Of a stretch of 16,295 nt of DNA, positions 9,326 to 16,295 are shown in pieces. A model generated the notes under the pieces. The model was not told the DNA's origin and did no database searches. It saw only the letters and a program-made list of their open reading frames with translations. The DNA comes from Prevotella sp. UBA3208 (GTDB lineage: Bacteria; Bacteroidota; Bacteroidia; Bacteroidales; Bacteroidaceae). Positions within the stretch are counted from its first letter, which is position 1. Each line of letters begins with the position of its first letter. Position numbers and translations under genes: made by a program. The stretch is from the NCBI GenBank assembly GCA_002363695.1, contig DEWO01000053.1:4167-20461 (forward strand), written 5' to 3'.

Positions 9326-10024
9326 TTATCTCTTTGCTTTTTGATACCACTCATGCAACATGCCACGTGGGATGCCCCTGCGGACGGCAGCATCGAGCAC
9401 ACGACGCGCCTCCTCACGGCGCTCAAGCACCAATAGCAAGTCAACATGAGAGACAACATAGAGCGGATCGTGGGGAGAGAGCTGTTCGGCACGCTGCCAG
9501 TCGTAGAGAGCCGACTCGTCCTGCTTCATCACGCGCTCCAGATTAGCCCGTGCAGCGTATGCCACTGCTGAGTCGGCATGTTGCTCAATAACCTGATTCA
9601 GCTGGTCAAGGGCTTCCTGACGGTGCCCCTGTTGCTGTAGCACAACAGCCAGCGACAAACGTCCCTCAAAATGATTGGGGAACATGACCAGCAGGTCGTT
9701 CAGGTCGTTACGTGCCAAATCGAAACGACGCAGGTGAGTGTTGGCATACGCACGATAGAACAATGCAGCAGGATTGCGCGGCTCGTGCTGCAAGACAAGT
9801 GCATACTCGTCAATGGCATACTCCCACTGCTTGAGTTCCAGATTGGCAGTCGCCTTGCGCAAGTGCAAGTCTGTAGACCATTGAGTCTCGGCAATCTGCC
9901 TGTTGAGTATGGTCAACGAGTCGCGCCAGCGCTGGCTGTCTGACAATTGCTGGGCCTGTATAGCTGATGCTCCCAATATGGCCACCAACAGGACTAAGCC
10001 TGCACGATATAGTCTACTATCCAT
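9326..10024 (-). CDS. Secreted tetratricopeptide-repeat protein
   Basis: The protein has 232 residues from the ATG at 10024. The frame stays open up to 10225, but that extension is Cys/Gly/Ser-rich sequence antiphase to leuB and precedes a convincing signal peptide ([20 protein letters not shown], cut near QAQ-Q). From about residue 50 to 215 there are about five TPR-like helix pairs, with hallmarks such as [19 protein letters not shown] (86-104) and [19 protein letters not shown] (152-170). TPRs form scaffolds for protein-protein contacts; no catalytic domain is present. It probably acts in the periplasm. The start lies 31 bp inside the end of leuB, so it is almost certainly translated from the leucine-operon mRNA. 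A link to leucine synthesis is not evident. Confidence 0.85.
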
Positions 10025-11055
10025 TGTCCGACTTCTTTGGTTCCGTATTGAGTTCCACCCTCTACCTGAATTTCCGGGGTGCGCACATTGGCATCCAGCG
10101 AGGCAGTAACAGCCTGACGAATGAGGGCTCCCTCCTTGTCCAACCCGAAGTGTTCGAGCAGCATGGCGGCAGAGAGTATTTGTGCCAACGGGTTGGCCAG
10201 ATTCTGGCCGGCAGCCTGAGGCCACGAACCATGTACAGGTTCAAACAACGGAGTATGTTCGCCCAGCGAACTGGAAGGCTGCAATCCCATGGAGCCCGTA
10301 ATGCACGACGTCTCGTCGGTTAGGATGTCACCGAAAGTATTCTCCGTCACAATGACGTCGAAGAAGCGAGGCTCCGTCAGCACACGCATAGAGGCATTGT
10401 CTATGAACATGTAGTCGGTAGTAACCTCAGGATACTGGGGTTCCATCTCCTTAGCTATCTGACGCCACAGACGACTGGAAGCCAGCACATTGGCCTTATC
10501 GACCACCGTAAGATGCTTGCGGCGCGTCATCGCCATCTCGAAGGCCACCTTCAGAATGCGCTCCACCTCGGGACGGGTGTAGACGTTAGTGTCGTAAGCC
10601 TTGTCGTTATCCTGATATTTCTCGCCGAAGTACATACCGCCCGTCAACTCACGGATAACCACAAAGTCGGCTCCGCGCAGCAGTTCCTCCTTGAGCGGTG
10701 ACTTGTGAAGCAGACAGTCGAAAGTAGCCACGGGGCGCACATTGGCAAAGAGTCCCAGTTGCTTGCGCATAGCCAACAAGCCTGTCTCTGGACGCATCTT
10801 CAGCGTGGGATCGTTGTCGTACTTGAGGTCACCAACAGCAGCAAACAATACTGCATCTGAGCGCATACATACCTCGTGGGTGGCAGCAGGATAAGCATCG
10901 CCACAAGCCTCTATGGCACAGGCACCTACCAGTGCCTCCTCATATTGGAACTCGTGTCCGCACTTGGCTGCAATAGCATTGAGCACGGCCACACCTTGTT
11001 TCATGATCTCCGGACCTATTCCGTCGCCCGGAAGAACGGCAATCTTAAGTTTCAT
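9994..11055 (-). CDS. leuB: 3-Isopropylmalate dehydrogenase
   Basis: LeuB oxidises and decarboxylates 3-isopropylmalate with NAD+ to 2-oxoisocaproate, the last leucine-specific step before transamination. The 353-residue protein has the family length and all expected motifs: PGDGIGPEI (9-17), substrate arginines at [12 protein letters not shown] (Arg97, Arg107) and VIREL (Arg135), GGMYFG (Tyr142), [14 protein letters not shown] (Lys187) and [12 protein letters not shown] (Asp243, Asp247). [13 protein letters not shown] and FEPVHGS follow; HGS is typical of NAD-dependent members. If the LeuA-family gene upstream makes citramalate, LeuB could also act on methylmalate in isoleucine synthesis, as in other bacteria. 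It is separated from that gene by 42 bp filled with octamer repeats, and its 3' end overlaps the TPR gene by 31 bp. Confidence 0.98.
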
Positions 11056-11064
11056 TTTATTCTT

Positions 11065-11104
11065 GTTTTTTTGTTATTCCGTTATTACGCTATTTCGTTA
11101 TTTC
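11065..11104 (-). repeat. Degenerate 8-bp tandem repeat between the second synthase gene and leuB
   Basis: On the minus strand five units run from 11104 down to 11065 in exact 8-bp register. The first four are GAAATAAC and close variants; the fifth is degenerate (AAAAAAAC). The stop codon of the upstream gene (TAA, 11100-11098) lies inside the first unit, and the array ends nine bases before the leuB ATG. No hairpin or promoter box is seen in the gap. Confidence 0.78.
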
Positions 11105-12672
11105 GAATGTTCACTTTCGACGATATTCAGCATTTTGAAAGTAGCCTTGATGGCGGCTTCCGTCTGGTCGGCATCCAGTCCCCGGGTACGCAGCAGGCCG
11201 CCCTTGTAGTGCCACGAGATGACCGTCTGCACCAAGGCATCCGTGCGTCCGCCTGGCGGGATGGTAACCTGGTAGTTGGCCAAAATGGGGAAGGTACGGT
11301 CCAAATACTTTTTATATATGTAGCGCAGGGCCTTGACAAAGGCGTCGTACTGACCGTCGCCCACAGCACTGCCGTCATACTGCTGTCCGTTGATTTCGAC
11401 CTTGATATTGGCCCCAGGCTTCAGTCCGTAGGCCGTAGAGACGACATAACTGATGAGCTTGACACGGTCTTCTGAACCATCATGCTTCAGTACGTCGCTG
11501 ACGATGTATGGCAGGTCTTCCTGCGTCACAATCTCCTTCTTGTCGCCCAGTTCTGTAATGCGCGCTGTCACACGGCGTGTCTGCTCCGGTGTCAGTTCCA
11601 AACCAAGTTCCTCCAGGTTCTTGGCTATGTTGGCACATCCGGAATTCTTGCCCAAAGCGTACTCACGTTTACGTCCGAAACGCTCTGGCATCAACTCGTT
11701 ATAGTAGAGCTGATCCTTGGAGTCGCCGTCAGCATGGACACCAGCCACCTGGGTAAAAACATTCTCGCCCACGATAGGCTGGTTTGGAGCCACCGTGATA
11801 CCACTAAAACTCTCTACCATGCGGGAGAGGTCGTTGAGTTGGTTCTCCACAATGCTGGTCTTGGCGTGGAACTGGTCCTTCAGAATGGCTTGCACAGAAG
11901 CCATCGGCGCATTACCACAACGCTCTCCCAGTCCATTGACGGTGACATGCAAGCCACGAGCTCCGCTTAGTACTGCAGCCAGCGAGTTCGAAACAGCCAA
12001 GTCATAGTCGTTGTGGGCATGAAAGTCAAAGTGTACGTCCGGATAGCGTTTTACCATCTTGCGGAAGTACTCAATAACCTGCAGAGGGTTCATCACACCA
12101 AGCGTGTCAGGCAGCATGAACCTTTGGATAGGCTGATGGCCTGCGACCAGCGCATCCATCATCTGATAGACGTAGTCTGGCGAATCCTTCATGCCGTTAG
12201 ACCAGTCTTCCAGATAGAGATTGACACACAGTCCACGCTCGGCGGCATAGGCAATCTCCTGCTGAACGTCTTTGATATGCTCATCGGGCGTCCTGTGCAA
12301 CTGATGAGTGCAATGCTTCAGCGAGCCCTTTGTCAGCAAGTTGATGACCCTGCCACCGCAGTCGGCTATCCAGTCTACACTCTTGCCACCATCCACAAAG
12401 CCCAATACTTCCACACGCTCCAGACGCCCCGTTTGTTCTGCCGCACGGCAAATCATAGACACCGCTTCCTTCTCGCCTTCCGACACACGTGCCGAAGCGA
12501 CCTCAATGCGGTCGACGTTGACGTCGTTCAGCAACTTACGGGCCATCACCAGTTTCTCGTGCGGCAGGAAGGACACGCCATTGGTCTGCTCACCGTCACG
12601 CAACGTGGAGTCCATAATCTCCACGAAGGGAGCCATACGCTGGTAGCCGTTTACTTGTTGAGCCGTTCCCAT
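11098..12672 (-). CDS. Second LeuA-family synthase, possibly (R)-citramalate synthase
   Basis: The protein has 524 residues with the HMGL-like/LeuA TIM barrel: MDSTLRDGEQTNGV (20-33; Arg25 catalytic, Asp21 metal), FHAHND (217-222; His218 and His220 metal ligands) and GLGERCGNAP (247-256). A C-terminal LeuA-type allosteric domain follows from about residue 385. It is only distantly related to the leuA product in this window: the [11 protein letters not shown] segment is replaced by GERCGNAPMAS and YCEDAGRTD by LEDWSNGMKDS. Such a paralogue beside leuC, leuD and leuB could condense acetyl-CoA with pyruvate to citramalate and feed isoleucine synthesis through the same enzymes; a second isopropylmalate synthase is the alternative. 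The start at 12672 overlaps leuD by 22 bp; an internal ATG at 12636 (codon 13) would give a 14-bp gap and is also credible. Confidence 0.82.
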   Translation of the reverse strand: MGTAQQVNGYQRMAPFVEIMDSTLRDGEQTNGVSFLPHEKLVMARKLLNDVNVDRIEVASARVSEGEKEAVSMICRAAEQTGRLERVEVLGFVDGGKSVDWIADCGGRVINLLTKGSLKHCTHQLHRTPDEHIKDVQQEIAYAAERGLCVNLYLEDWSNGMKDSPDYVYQMMDALVAGHQPIQRFMLPDTLGVMNPLQVIEYFRKMVKRYPDVHFDFHAHNDYDLAVSNSLAAVLSGARGLHVTVNGLGERCGNAPMASVQAILKDQFHAKTSIVENQLNDLSRMVESFSGITVAPNQPIVGENVFTQVAGVHADGDSKDQLYYNELMPERFGRKREYALGKNSGCANIAKNLEELGLELTPEQTRRVTARITELGDKKEIVTQEDLPYIVSDVLKHDGSEDRVKLISYVVSTAYGLKPGANIKVEINGQQYDGSAVGDGQYDAFVKALRYIYKKYLDRTFPILANYQVTIPPGGRTDALVQTVISWHYKGGLLRTRGLDADQTEAAIKATFKMLNIVESEHSK

Positions 12673-13247
12673 TGTTCTATCTTGTCTTTGTTCTCTACCA
12701 GGAAATCAATGTCGTCTAGGCCGTTCATCAGACAGTGCTTCTTGTATCCATTGATTTCAAACTGCTCCGAACGTCCTGTAGCCTTATTGGTTACTGTCTG
12801 ACGGGGCAGGTCTACCTCGACCAGCGTCTTCGGATCGCGCTGAATACTCTGGAACAATTCAGAGAGAAAGTCCTCGCTGACAACTACAGGCAGCACAAAA
12901 TTGTTCAGTTCATTGTTCTTGTGAATGTCGGCAAAGAACGAACTGATAACTACGCGAAAGCCATAGCCCGCAATAGCCCATGCGGCGTGTTCGCGACTGC
13001 TGCCCGAGCCGAAGTTCTTGCCTGCCACGAGAATACATCCCGAGTAGGCTGGGTCGTTGAGCACGAAGTCCTTATTGGGGGTTCCGTCGGCATTGTAACG
13101 CCAATCGCGGAACAGGTTATCACCGAAGAAACTTTCCTCGCGCGTCGTAGCCTTGAGGAATCGTGCAGGTATAATCTGGTCAGTATCTACATTCTCCAAT
13201 GGCAGGGGAACACAGGTCGATGTGATGATATTGAATTTCTGTTTCAT
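12651..13247 (-). CDS. leuD: 3-Isopropylmalate dehydratase small subunit
   Basis: LeuD pairs with LeuC to isomerise 2-isopropylmalate to 3-isopropylmalate through isopropylmaleate. The protein has 198 residues, the usual size of the swivel-domain subunit. Family marks are [15 protein letters not shown] (18-32) and the substrate-contact motif [15 protein letters not shown] (78-92). The ATG overlaps the leuC stop as ATGA, so translation is likely coupled and keeps the two subunits in balance. It is also the subunit that would be shared if citramalate is made by the next gene. Confidence 0.98.
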
Positions 13248-14620
13248 AATAGTGTTCTTGGGTCGGTTATTACTCCTGTTACAGCAGCGGCAGCAGCCAC
13301 AAGGGGCGAAGCCAGGATAGTGCGTGAGCCTGGACCCTGACGGCCCTCAAAGTTACGATTTGAGGTCGAGACGGCATACTTGCCGGCAGGCACCTTGTCG
13401 TCATTCATGGCCAGACAGGCCGAACAGCCTGGCTGACGAATCTGGAAGCCTGCCTCGATGAGTACTTTGTCCAGTCCTTCCTCGCGAATCTGTCGGTCGA
13501 CATTCCATGAGCCAGGCACCAACCATGCCACCACGTCTGTGGCTTTCTGACGGCCCTTGACGATAGACGCAAAAGCGCGGAAGTCCTCGATACGTCCATT
13601 GGTACAAGCGCCCAAGAACACATAGTCAATCTTCTTGCCCAACAAGTGTTCCCCAGCTTTGAAACCCATGTAGTCAAGAGCTTTCTGGAAGCCTACCCCA
13701 CCTTCTGCAGGAATGGCTTCGCTGATGCCGATACCCATACCGGGATTGGTGCCATAGGTAACGCGTGGCTCAATGTCTTTGGCATCGAATACCAGTTCTT
13801 TGTCAAACACAGCATCGGGGCCACTCTGCAATGTACGCCAATAAGCAACAGCCTTATCCCAGTCTGCGCCTTTCGGAGCATACTCCCTACCCTTCAGATA
13901 GGCAAAGGTAGTCTCATCAGGAGCTATGAATCCGCCACGGGCCCCCATCTCTATCGAGAGGTTACAAAGTGTCAGTCGGCCCTCCATCGAAAGAGCGCGT
14001 ACAACGTCACCACTGTACTCCACAAAATATCCCGTGGCACCACTGGTGGTCAACTGGCTCATCAGGTAGAGTGCCACATCCTTAGCCGTCACTCCTTTCT
14101 GCAACTGGCCGTTGATAGTGATGCGCATCGACTTGGGTTTCTGTTGAAGGATACACTGTGAGGCCATCACCATCTCCACCTCAGAAGTTCCAATGCCGAA
14201 AGCCACAGCCCCCATAGCTCCGTGAGTCGACGTGTGTGAGTCGCCACAGACAATGGTCATACCGGGCAACGAGAGTCCTTTCTCAGGACCTACGACATGG
14301 ATGATACCATTGTCCTTGGACATCATGCCATAGTGGGTCAAACCGAACTCGCGGGCATTCTGCTCTAACGTGGCTACCTGTTTGGCAGAAACAGGGTCCT
14401 CAATGGGTTTATCCTGGTCATGCGTAGGCGTATTGTGGTCGGGCATACAGTAGATATGGTCAGGACGGAAACATTTCAGCCCGCGCTGACGCATTCCGTC
14501 GAAAGCCTGAGGCGATGTGACCTCATGACAATACAGACGGTCTATATATAACTGCGTGGGCCCGTCGTCTACCATCTGCACCACGTGCTTGTCCCATATT
14601 TTGTCAAAAAGCGTATTCAT
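13244..14620 (-). CDS. leuC: 3-Isopropylmalate dehydratase large subunit
   Basis: LeuC is the aconitase-family subunit that carries the [4Fe-4S] cluster and works with LeuD. The protein has 458 residues, near the usual 460-470. Cluster cysteines are visible as Cys339 in GACTNGR and Cys399/Cys402 in [10 protein letters not shown]. Other marks are [14 protein letters not shown] (27-40), [12 protein letters not shown] (126-137) and [16 protein letters not shown] (421-436). Only three bases separate it from the leuA stop, and it overlaps leuD by 4 bp, so all three genes form one translation-coupled block. Confidence 0.98.
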
Positions 14621-14623
14621 ACC

Positions 14624-16120
14624 TTATTTCTTGAATTTGTTAATACAATCGATATATGCTTCAACGGAAGCCGTCACAATGTCTGTATTGGCACCGAAGC
14701 CATAATATAACGAGCCATTGTACTCCACCTGCATGTGTACCTTACCCACGTCATCTGAGCCCTTGGAAATAGCCTGGATGGTAAACTCCTTCAGTGTCAT
14801 CTGCTTCGAGATAATTTTCTTCAGCGCCTTGATAGCAGCATCCACAGGACCATTACCCGAGGCTGCAGCCTCAAACTTCTGATTCGAGATGTCAAGCCCA
14901 ATAGAGGCCACACTCTTGACTCCCTTACCGGTTGTCACCTGCAGGAAGTCTAACTTCACGGCGTGAGCCTCAGCCGTATCGGCACCAGCCAACATCAATA
15001 CGTCAGCATCGTTCACCTCCTTCTTCTGGTCTGCCAACTTCAGGAACTTCTCGTACACTTTATCCAGTTTCTCTTCTGACAACTCAACACCATTGACATT
15101 GAGTCTGTACTTCAGCGCAGCACGACCTGAGCGTGCCGTCAGTACGATGGAGCTATCGTCAATGCCCACATCCTTGGGGTCCATAATCTCGTACGTATGC
15201 ACATTCTTCAGCACACCATCCTGATGAATGCCCGAAGAATGGGCAAAGGCATTGCGACCCACCACAGCCTTATTCGGTTGTACGGGCATATTCATCAAGC
15301 TGGACACCATGCGGCTTGTGGGATAAATCTTTGTTGTATTGATATTGGTATCAATTCCCAGCCCCTTGTGACATTTGAGTATCATGGCAATCTCCTCAAG
15401 CGAGGTGTTGCCAGCCCGCTCACCTATACCATTGATTGTTACCTCCACCTGACGTGCACCAGCCATCACACCACAGAAAGTGTTGGCTGTCGCCATACCT
15501 AAATCATTGTGGCAGTGGGTTGAGATGACGGCGTTGTCTATGCCGTCCACATGCTCCTTCAGATATTTGATTTTCTCAAAGTACTCCTGAGGCAGGCAGT
15601 AACCTGTTGTATCAGGAATGTTGACTATTGTAGCTCCTGCCTTGATAACGGCTTCTACCACACGGGCCAAATACTCGTTGTCCGTACGTCCGGCATCCTC
15701 GCAGTAGAACTCTACGTCCTCCACATACTTTTTGGCATACTTCGTAGCACGTACAGCACGCTCGATAATCTCTTCGCGATTGGAGTTGAACTTGTACTGA
15801 ATGTGCTCGTCAGACGTACCAATGCCCGTGTGAATACGCTTACGCTTAGCATACTGCAGCGCTTCGGCAGCCACATCGATGTCGTGCTCCACAGCACGCG
15901 TCAATGCACAAACAGTTGGCCATGTGACAGCCTTCGAAATCTCAATGACCGAATGGAAATCACCCGGACTTGACACGGGGAAGCCAGCCTCAATGACGTC
16001 TACGCCAAGCTGCTCCAGCGCCTTAGCCACCTGAATCTTCTCAATGGTGTTCAACTGGCAGCCAGGCACTTGTTCGCCGTCGCGCAGGGTCGTGTCAAAA
16101 ATAAACAATCTGTCGCTCAT
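14624..16120 (-). CDS. leuA: 2-Isopropylmalate synthase
   Basis: LeuA condenses acetyl-CoA with 2-oxoisovalerate, the committed step of leucine synthesis. The protein has 498 residues. The catalytic barrel carries [13 protein letters not shown] (8-20; Asp9 metal, Arg13 catalytic), STHCHNDLG (200-208; His202 and His204 metal) and [13 protein letters not shown] (231-243). The C-terminal part from about residue 385 is the leucine-sensing regulatory domain, ending [11 protein letters not shown]. It is first in the operon and is preceded by an apparent attenuator, so both feedback inhibition and transcription attenuation may act here. The start at 16120 is the first ATG before the LRDGEQ region and needs no extension. 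Confidence 0.97.
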
Positions 16121-16171: not shown

Positions 16172-16206
16172 AAAAAAGCCCTTCACACTCGGAAGTGAGA
16201 AAGGCT
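16172..16206 (-). terminator. Attenuator terminator hairpin upstream of leuA
   Basis: On the minus strand 16206-16177 folds into a stem with arms AGCCTTTCTCACT and AGTGTGAAGGGCT around loop TCCG. It has 13 positions paired, including one T-G wobble and one T-T mismatch, and is followed by a six-base T-run (16177-16172). It is a textbook intrinsic terminator located 51 bases before the leuA ATG, with no gene ending nearby, so it most likely controls entry into the leucine operon. Confidence 0.85.
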
Positions 16207-16263
16207 CGTATCATTGTTCTTGTTCGTCTTATACCTTAATTAATACACACCTCATCACTTCCG
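16190..16263 (-). promoter_or_regulatory. Predicted antiterminator pairing in the leuA leader
   Basis: On the minus strand CGGAAGTGA (16263-16255), inside the leader-peptide codons, is exactly complementary to TCACTTCCG (16198-16190), which covers the upper 5' arm and loop of the terminator. A GAG following a one-base bulge could extend the pairing. The two structures exclude each other. A ribosome stalled at the Ile codons upstream would leave 16263-16255 free to pair, opening the terminator. Confidence 0.7.
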
Positions 16264-16295
16264 GCTACACTGCGCAGTCGAATAATAATCAGGTT
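16236..16295 (-). CDS. leuA leader peptide, C-terminal part
   Basis: The minus-strand frame entering at the window edge reads NLIIIRLRSVAGSDEVCIN and stops at TAA (16238-16236). It has three consecutive Ile codons (ATT) flanked by Leu, and Val codons further on, which fits a regulatory leader peptide for a branched-chain amino acid operon. The start codon lies beyond the right edge. The codons GCC GGA AGT GAT also encode the antiterminator strand. A 10-base palindrome ACTGCGCAGT (16269-16278) lies within the peptide codons. The gene is inferred from codon content and its place before the terminator; start and ribosome site cannot be seen. Confidence 0.68.
   Translation of the reverse strand, partial: NLIIIRLRSVAGSDEVCIN

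Follow-up and report, generated by a model that had tools for sequence, protein, structure and literature searches.

The leader of leuA at the right end of the window, by which we mean the whole 16,295-nt stretch of Prevotella sp. UBA3208 DNA analysed here, is very probably a classical ribosome-mediated transcription attenuator, in which ribosomes would stall on isoleucine and leucine codons ahead of a leuACD-citramalate synthase-leuB operon. It has a short open reading frame (ORF) with codons for the end products, mutually exclusive pairings that covary, and a terminator whose T-run lies ahead of the first gene. Reading along the minus strand, the 3′ part of the ORF is followed by the terminator and T-run and then by leuA, with the following parts.

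16236..16295, minus strand: leader peptide ORF, 3′ part (NLIIIRLRSVAGSDEVCIN, then stop), read from the sequence; its start codon lies beyond the window end.
16281..16289, minus strand: three putative Ile control codons, ATT ATT ATT; of 65 leaders, 64, 60 and 65 have Ile or Leu at these positions.
16275..16277, minus strand: putative Leu control codon, CTG, the last position where a modelled stall antiterminates (P(2:3) 1.00, and 0.03 one codon later).
16274..16294, minus strand: segment 1, partner of segment 2 in hairpin 1:2 (predicted fold, covariation).
16249..16268, minus strand: segment 2, with the antiterminator strand at 16263-16249, within the leader codons (sequence, covariation).
16190..16206, minus strand: segment 3, the terminator 5′ arm and loop, complement of segment 2 (sequence, covariation).
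16177..16188, minus strand: segment 4, the terminator 3′ arm (fold, covariation).
16172..16177, minus strand: six-T run ending the intrinsic terminator (sequence).

The genes downstream were assigned from their best NCBIfam matches.

14624..16120, minus strand: leuA, 2-isopropylmalate synthase (TIGR00973, 663.6 bits; cut-off 598.7).
13244..14620, minus strand: leuC (TIGR00170, 620.4 bits; cut-off 560.25).
12651..13247, minus strand: leuD (TIGR00171, 186.7 bits; cut-off 116.25).
11098..12672, minus strand: probable (R)-citramalate synthase (best match NF042433 CimA, 616.1 bits, below the cut-off of 950).
9994..11055, minus strand: leuB (TIGR00169, 424.2 bits; cut-off 353.2).

Synthesis of the leucine precursor uses LeuA, LeuCD and LeuB; citramalate synthase, together with LeuCD and LeuB, supplies 2-oxobutyrate for isoleucine.

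The leader codons from 16295 to 16236 read AAC CTG ATT ATT ATT CGA CTG CGC AGT GTA GCC GGA AGT GAT GAG GTG TGT ATT AAT TAA. The terminator stem spans about 16206-16177, with six T at 16177-16172, upstream of the leuA start at 16120. The initial annotation, made from the sequence alone, had proposed four elements in order: a frame with Ile and Leu codons, a 9-nt segment inside it, a terminator holding the complement of that segment, and a T-run before leuA. All four lie on the minus strand where it placed them, and CGGAAGTGA (16263-16255) and TCACTTCCG (16198-16190) are perfectly complementary. The antiterminator and terminator hold, but the set omitted a further hairpin: in the predicted fold, the Ile-codon segment 16294-16274, with the control codons, pairs with the antiterminator strand, giving the classical set of 1:2, 2:3 and 3:4 pairings, and this hairpin 1:2 is part of the switch logic. 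The 175-nt leader folds with a z-score of -2.40, and 5 of 200 shuffles folded equally well. Within the terminator stem, the U at 16198 is unpaired opposite another U (16185; U or C in many relatives) and finds a partner in the antiterminator, which points to selection on both folds.

Stalling of the ribosome, an end to transcription in the leader and the choice of amino acids sensed are inferred from what was observed in computer analysis: the sequence, the pairings and their covariation, codon placement, conservation and operon association. RNA polymerase would make the leader with its short ORF. With too little charged Ile-tRNA or Leu-tRNA, the ribosome would stall on the Ile codons or the next Leu codon and cover segment 1, leaving segment 2 free for segment 3; the 2:3 pairing would block the terminator and the leuACD-citramalate synthase-leuB operon would be transcribed. 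When both amino acids are plentiful, the ribosome would reach the stop codon and cover segment 2, or 1:2 would re-form; 3:4 would then form and transcription would end before leuA. Translation-coupled attenuation, as the initial annotation had suggested, is supported by covariation of three helices, by agreement between modelled stall positions and codons, and by recurrence of the element before leuA and ilvD.

Relatives were found by scanning genome contigs for LeuA, and the best 80 of 590 were taken, mostly from rumen Prevotella-type genomes, with LeuA proteins 87-94% identical. The window shares about 80% DNA identity with the closest loci across leader and leuA, so these are other species. 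Among these best 80 of 590 loci, the attenuator element is present upstream of leuA in 67, recognised by a CGACTGC pattern in 56 and by eye in 11 more; the same two approaches found no element upstream of leuA in 13 (L001, L003, L008, L033, L043, L059, L060, L062, L064, L067, L070, L073 and L075). The expectation that relatives would keep the codons and the complementarity is therefore borne out in 67 of the 80, but not in the 13 that lack the whole element. Several of these 13 loci retain a promoter-like box near leuA, pointing to simple loss or a different mode of control. In all 67 leader-bearing loci, which include one from a culturable strain, Xylanibacter ruminicola (L045), an ORF of 10-45 codons that begins with ATG spans the control region; the start codon sought by the initial annotation is thus present in these relatives, and the window's own start codon and promoter would lie past its edge. 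A TAn2-4TTTG box, which we take to be the usual Bacteroidota -7 box, lies no more than 90 nt upstream of the leader ATG in 64 of the 67 relatives, compared with 5.6% of random windows from the same loci.

The gene order is also widely kept. A citramalate synthase-like gene lies 3′ of leuD, within the fetched flank, in 72 of the best 80 of 590 loci. Three of the remaining eight reach a contig end, L002, L003, L062 and L064 have no citramalate synthase-like gene in the flank, and the flank of L073 also has no leuC or leuD. L002 is the sole locus of this closer set with a leader and no citramalate synthase gene in a complete flank; its leader has two Ile codons.

Covariation was counted for the three named structures in an alignment of the window with the 67 leaders (68 rows). 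Helix 1:2 comprises 19 pairs, with 85.3% of cells paired and 9 pairs changed on both sides; helix 2:3 comprises 13 pairs (96.6% paired, 5 changed on both sides) and helix 3:4 comprises 11 (95.2% paired, 6 changed on both sides). For each helix, none of 500 shuffles matched the observed percentage paired, both-side changes or covariation score, a control inflated by the relatedness of the sequences and applied to structures derived from those same sequences. Sliding the partner by 1-3 columns reduced pairing to 23-67%. Helix 1:2 has the least support: three pairs are broken in 28-42 of the 68 rows, and its slid versions retain 4-7 pairs changed on both sides. RNAalifold returned no consensus structure for the 5′ part of the leader, so the pairs counted for this helix are those of single-sequence folds. 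The initial annotation had called for a covariation check on its two hairpins; all three pairings (1:2, 2:3 and 3:4) covary. The C and T of the control codon CTG (16275..16277) are invariant in 68 of 68 rows.

Stalling was modelled by folding the RNA beyond the ribosome with each codon in turn in the A site, using 66 rows of the alignment (L039 and L042 left out), equilibrium folding without kinetics, and codon 0 set as the conserved Arg codon. For the window alone, the predicted probability of the terminator is 1.00 without a ribosome, that of the antiterminator is 0.98-1.00 for stalls from -4 to +1, and the terminator returns at 0.96-1.00 from +2. Averaged over the 66 leaders, the values without a ribosome are 0.03 for the antiterminator and 0.88 for the terminator; the antiterminator rises to 0.67-0.73 for stalls at -3 to +1 and 0.59 at -4, and the terminator stands at 0.85-0.91 from +2. 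In the model, stalls at -3 to +1 fail to favour 2:3 in 24-30% of leaders, and stalls at -4 in 39%. Shifting the assumed footprint by 3 nt moves the modelled antitermination step by one codon.

Codon placement agrees with these predictions. Among 65 leaders (L039, L042 and L077 left out), Ile or Leu codons occupy -4 in 57, -3 in 64, -2 in 60 and -1 in all 65, and no position from +2 to +8 holds one in more than a single leader; the anchor of this count requires CGA or CTA at codon 0 and a CT-codon at +1, which makes Leu at +1 (65/65) true by construction. A recount without the anchor measured distance from segment 2 in each leader's own frame for 67 leaders. Ile or Leu then appears in 59, 63, 63, 57 and 57 of 67 leaders at 9, 8, 7, 6 and 4 codons before segment 2 (85-94%), and in 3, 1, 0 and 1 of 67 at 3, 2, 1 and 0 codons before it; from 3 codons before segment 2 to 3 into it, only 0-4% of codons are Ile or Leu. 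In the model, the control codons are thus placed so that a stall would free segment 2.

Ile or Leu returns near the peptide end: 7 codons past the segment 2 start it stands in 21 of the 48 leaders that extend so far, and 8 codons past it in 10 of 16. Modelled stalls at these codons would not antiterminate, and the model leaves their return unexplained. Ile accounts for 27 of the codons at 7-8 past the segment 2 start, in the last codons of leaders from L002-L080. Ten leaders have a stop codon six bases into segment 2, in a frame differing from that of the other 57, and nine of the ten encode peptides ending in RK. That segment 2 is kept in these ten despite the early stop and the other frame implies that it is constrained as RNA. 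The initial annotation had unhindered translation covering the antiterminator strand in passing. With the ribosome at the stop codon, half or more of segment 2 would be covered in 51 of 66 leaders; otherwise, 1:2 can re-form, which amends this part of the proposal.

A covariance model, R1, trained only on the leuA leader alignment, was used to search more widely. At E≤0.001, R1 matched 82 of 150 genomes in the genus to which G001 belongs (G001 being the genome of L024, Prevotella sp. MA2016). It also matched 65 of 295 genomes in the order of G001 and 38 of 395 in the phylum. These numbers should not be read as counts of true elements, because antisense copies and plain terminators are among the weaker rows. 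In the genus search, leuA lay downstream in 14 of 20 fetched regions. From the order search, 80 of 88 rows were fetched, the other eight being two of G001, five antisense copies and one second match beside L236. The first downstream ORF of at least 120 amino acids was leuA in 43 (34 among the first 60 regions and 9 among the last 20), ilvD in 27 (24 and 3), and another gene or none in 10 (2 and 8), such that 70 of the 80 inspected matches precede leuA or ilvD. Five of five tested ilvD proteins exceed the NCBIfam cut-off for dihydroxy-acid dehydratase. Extending all 34 leu operons among the first 60 order-search regions showed the gene order leuA-leuC-leuD-citramalate synthase in 33, with leuB also visible in 28 of these; the remaining operon runs into the end of its contig. 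The 25 phylum-wide loci include one match before leuA and one before ilvD, and most others look like plain terminators. Within Prevotella, none of 30 fetched ilvD loci matched R1 at E≤0.1 (ilvD itself was matched in 45 of 60 genomes).

Many leaders share GGAAGTGA- or TCACTTCC-type antiterminator strands, and in the distant leaders the strands change jointly, for example to GGTAAGT/ACTTACC in L132 and GGGTGG/CCACCTT in L141. Duplex formation between segment 3 and the upstream region was compared with that of shuffles, after dropping two sequences with no usable hairpin. The duplex reached p≤0.05 in 21 of 24 ilvD, 25 of 33 distant leuA and 64 of 66 Prevotella-type leuA leaders, as well as in the window, in a test biased by the fact that the model choosing the distant set favours these strands in sequence. 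At p≤0.01 the numbers were 17, 12 and 46, respectively, and the window did not reach this level.

The upstream gene sits beyond the window, which leaves room for the hairpin to be that gene's ordinary terminator with an ORF beside it by chance. We regard this as having a negligible probability, given the promoter-like box ahead of the leader ORF in nearly all relatives, the covariation of mutually exclusive helices, and the presence of leuA or ilvD downstream of most inspected matches. A structured leader with a terminator could also be a ligand riboswitch, a T-box or a protein-binding attenuator that happens to contain an ORF. In Rfam 15, no family reached its gathering score in the window (four matches, all far below it), and 32 related loci gave no match besides tRNA genes; hence no known T-box or riboswitch family is present in the window or these loci. 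Together with codon content that tracks the operon, described below, this makes such a regulator highly improbable and favours attenuation by ribosome stalling.

Codon usage was compared in 101 leuA leaders (67 Prevotella-type and 34 distant) and 23 of 24 ilvD leaders (one without an ORF was dropped), a set that leaves out the last 20 order regions and 14 genus-search leuA leaders and in which some ORF choices are possibly wrong. The leuA leader peptides contain 17.6% Ile, 18.1% Leu and 3.9% Val, and the ilvD leader peptides 14.5% Ile, 16.2% Leu and 17.1% Val, against a background of 6.1% Ile, 9.1% Leu and 7.2% Val in nine window proteins. Val per leader is higher before ilvD than before leuA (Mann-Whitney p = 7e-9; 6e-8 against distant leuA leaders only), and Ile and Leu are somewhat higher in leuA than in ilvD leaders (p = 0.0009 and 0.006), all with relatedness ignored. 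Of the Leu codons, the rare CTA accounts for 130 of 442 in leuA leaders and 14 of 389 in the background. Dihydroxy-acid dehydratase serves all three branched-chain amino acids. Leader codon content thus fits the supply of each operon: Ile and Leu with little Val before leuA, and Ile, Leu and Val before ilvD.

The initial annotation had stressed a triple codon of Ile rather than Leu. That contrast does not survive the comparison with relatives, which carry both alike and are enriched in rare CTA. A leader sensing only isoleucine (or only leucine), with the other codons incidental, is unlikely in our assessment. The window's modelled effective stretch (-4 to +1) has three Ile and two Leu codons, and Ile occupies -3, -2 and -1 in 60, 60 and 64 of 65 relatives, as sensing of isoleucine alone would have it. 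Against this, Ile and Leu, but not Val, are enriched alike over background in the 101 leuA leaders, CTA is enriched, and Leu stands four codons before segment 2 in 57 of 67 leaders and thirteen before it in 54 of 66. A response to both amino acids appears likelier, because the leaders carry both, with more Leu codons past the window edge in relatives.

Nascent peptides such as TnaC and SecM arrest the ribosome, and the strong conservation of I-I-I-R-L in Prevotella-type leaders could be read in the same way, with IIIIRL as an arrest sequence instead of a row of hungry codons. This is very unlikely: CGACTG takes part in 1:2 pairing, none of the leuA leader peptides listed for the distant set contains IRL although composition is retained (for example, IIILL), and the gain of Val in ilvD leaders fits tRNA supply better than one arrest motif. 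Stalling on scarce charged tRNA remains our preferred reading.

Other candidate leaders were noticed in the course of these searches. A Phe/Tyr-rich leader peptide, such as MLNAYFYGYYFYFAENCEAVGRK, precedes a prephenate dehydratase-like gene in 30 of 30 fetched loci of the genus Prevotella (L326-L355); the gene is found in 46 of 60 genomes, and such leaders appear in 55 of 1200 control windows. In L095 and L099, where it was first seen, the strand GTGAAGCGG complements the next terminator arm, and this looks like a second attenuator family. An Asn-rich leader peptide, MKNYLKNNKLNNNCNNNYCCERLCF, and a terminator-like hairpin lie before asnA in L391 (about 2558-2420, minus strand), where the aspartate--ammonia ligase scores 396 bits (cut-off 292.8). 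WWWW or WAWFWF leaders precede anthranilate synthase component I genes in other phylum genomes (L240 and L251, about 1440-1610); these Trp-rich leaders are probably trp attenuators. A leader, MNFIITTTTISTTTTISSCRKVCL, precedes an aspartokinase gene in L243 (about 1480-1615); Thr/Ile leaders before aspartokinase-like genes are not general in Prevotella (2 of 30 loci, against 23 of 1200 control windows). Finally, in L259 and L260 (about 1470-1600) a short ORF is preceded by a leader rich in Ile, MKNSIQNSIIISIIIIRIT in the case of L259, where the ORF had no NCBIfam match at E≤1e-20.

The Bacteroid-trp motif is an attenuator-type RNA of an amino-acid operon (trp, with Trp codons) in Bacteroidota; the window leader shares this type and phylum, but that motif belongs to trp, and the window has no Rfam match. 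The enterobacterial leu leader combines alternative hairpins with a terminator. Like the leu leader of Salmonella and E. coli, for which the accessible part of the source describes an attenuated operon and a leader peptide with Leu codons including CUA, used by the Salmonella attenuator (PMC1183508), the leader here carries Leu codons before a leu operon. Unlike it, the leader here has Ile beside Leu in the effective stretch, a probable citramalate synthase in the operon and no Rfam match. The ilvD leaders resemble those of E. coli ilvGMEDA (PMC1183508) and Corynebacterium ilvBNC, the ilvB-II motif (PMC10272879), which in the accessible parts of these sources have an upstream ORF rich in branched-chain codons with a terminator and an antiterminator; they differ in phylum and first gene, and the likeness is one of description, not of direct sequence comparison. 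Leader-peptide attenuation of leu and ilv operons is thus already established, as far as the accessible text of these two papers goes (PMC1183508, PMC10272879).

For Bacteroidota, the accessible text only hints at such leaders: it mentions clues of leader-peptide attenuation before unnamed amino-acid operons in Flavobacterium psychrophilum (PMC9723704) and, in Bacteroides thetaiotaomicron, small ORFs reminiscent of leader peptides in long 5′ untranslated regions (PMC7366714). The accessible parts of PMC4833913 and PMC2965389 contain no leu leaders of Bacteroidota, and a leuA or ilvD attenuator from this phylum was not found in the open-licence literature, as far as its accessible text extends; a 2010 comparative survey (Lopatovskaya et al.) may list some.

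It is likely that leader-peptide attenuation is a main and ancestral means of controlling how branched-chain amino acids are made across the order of Prevotella, with one related family of leaders at leuA and ilvD, whose codons are tuned to the products of their operons, and with parallel leaders for Phe/Tyr before prephenate dehydratase, Asn before asnA and Trp before trpE. A covariance model is now available for this leader family, which Rfam 15 does not recognise. If our reading is right, the relatives of Prevotella rely on ribosomes to sense branched-chain amino acids through attenuation, and the codons of a leader would be readable as a label of the amino acids that its operon supplies. 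For the operon in the window, the regulation would then support the view that its LeuA-like enzyme feeds isoleucine synthesis via citramalate.
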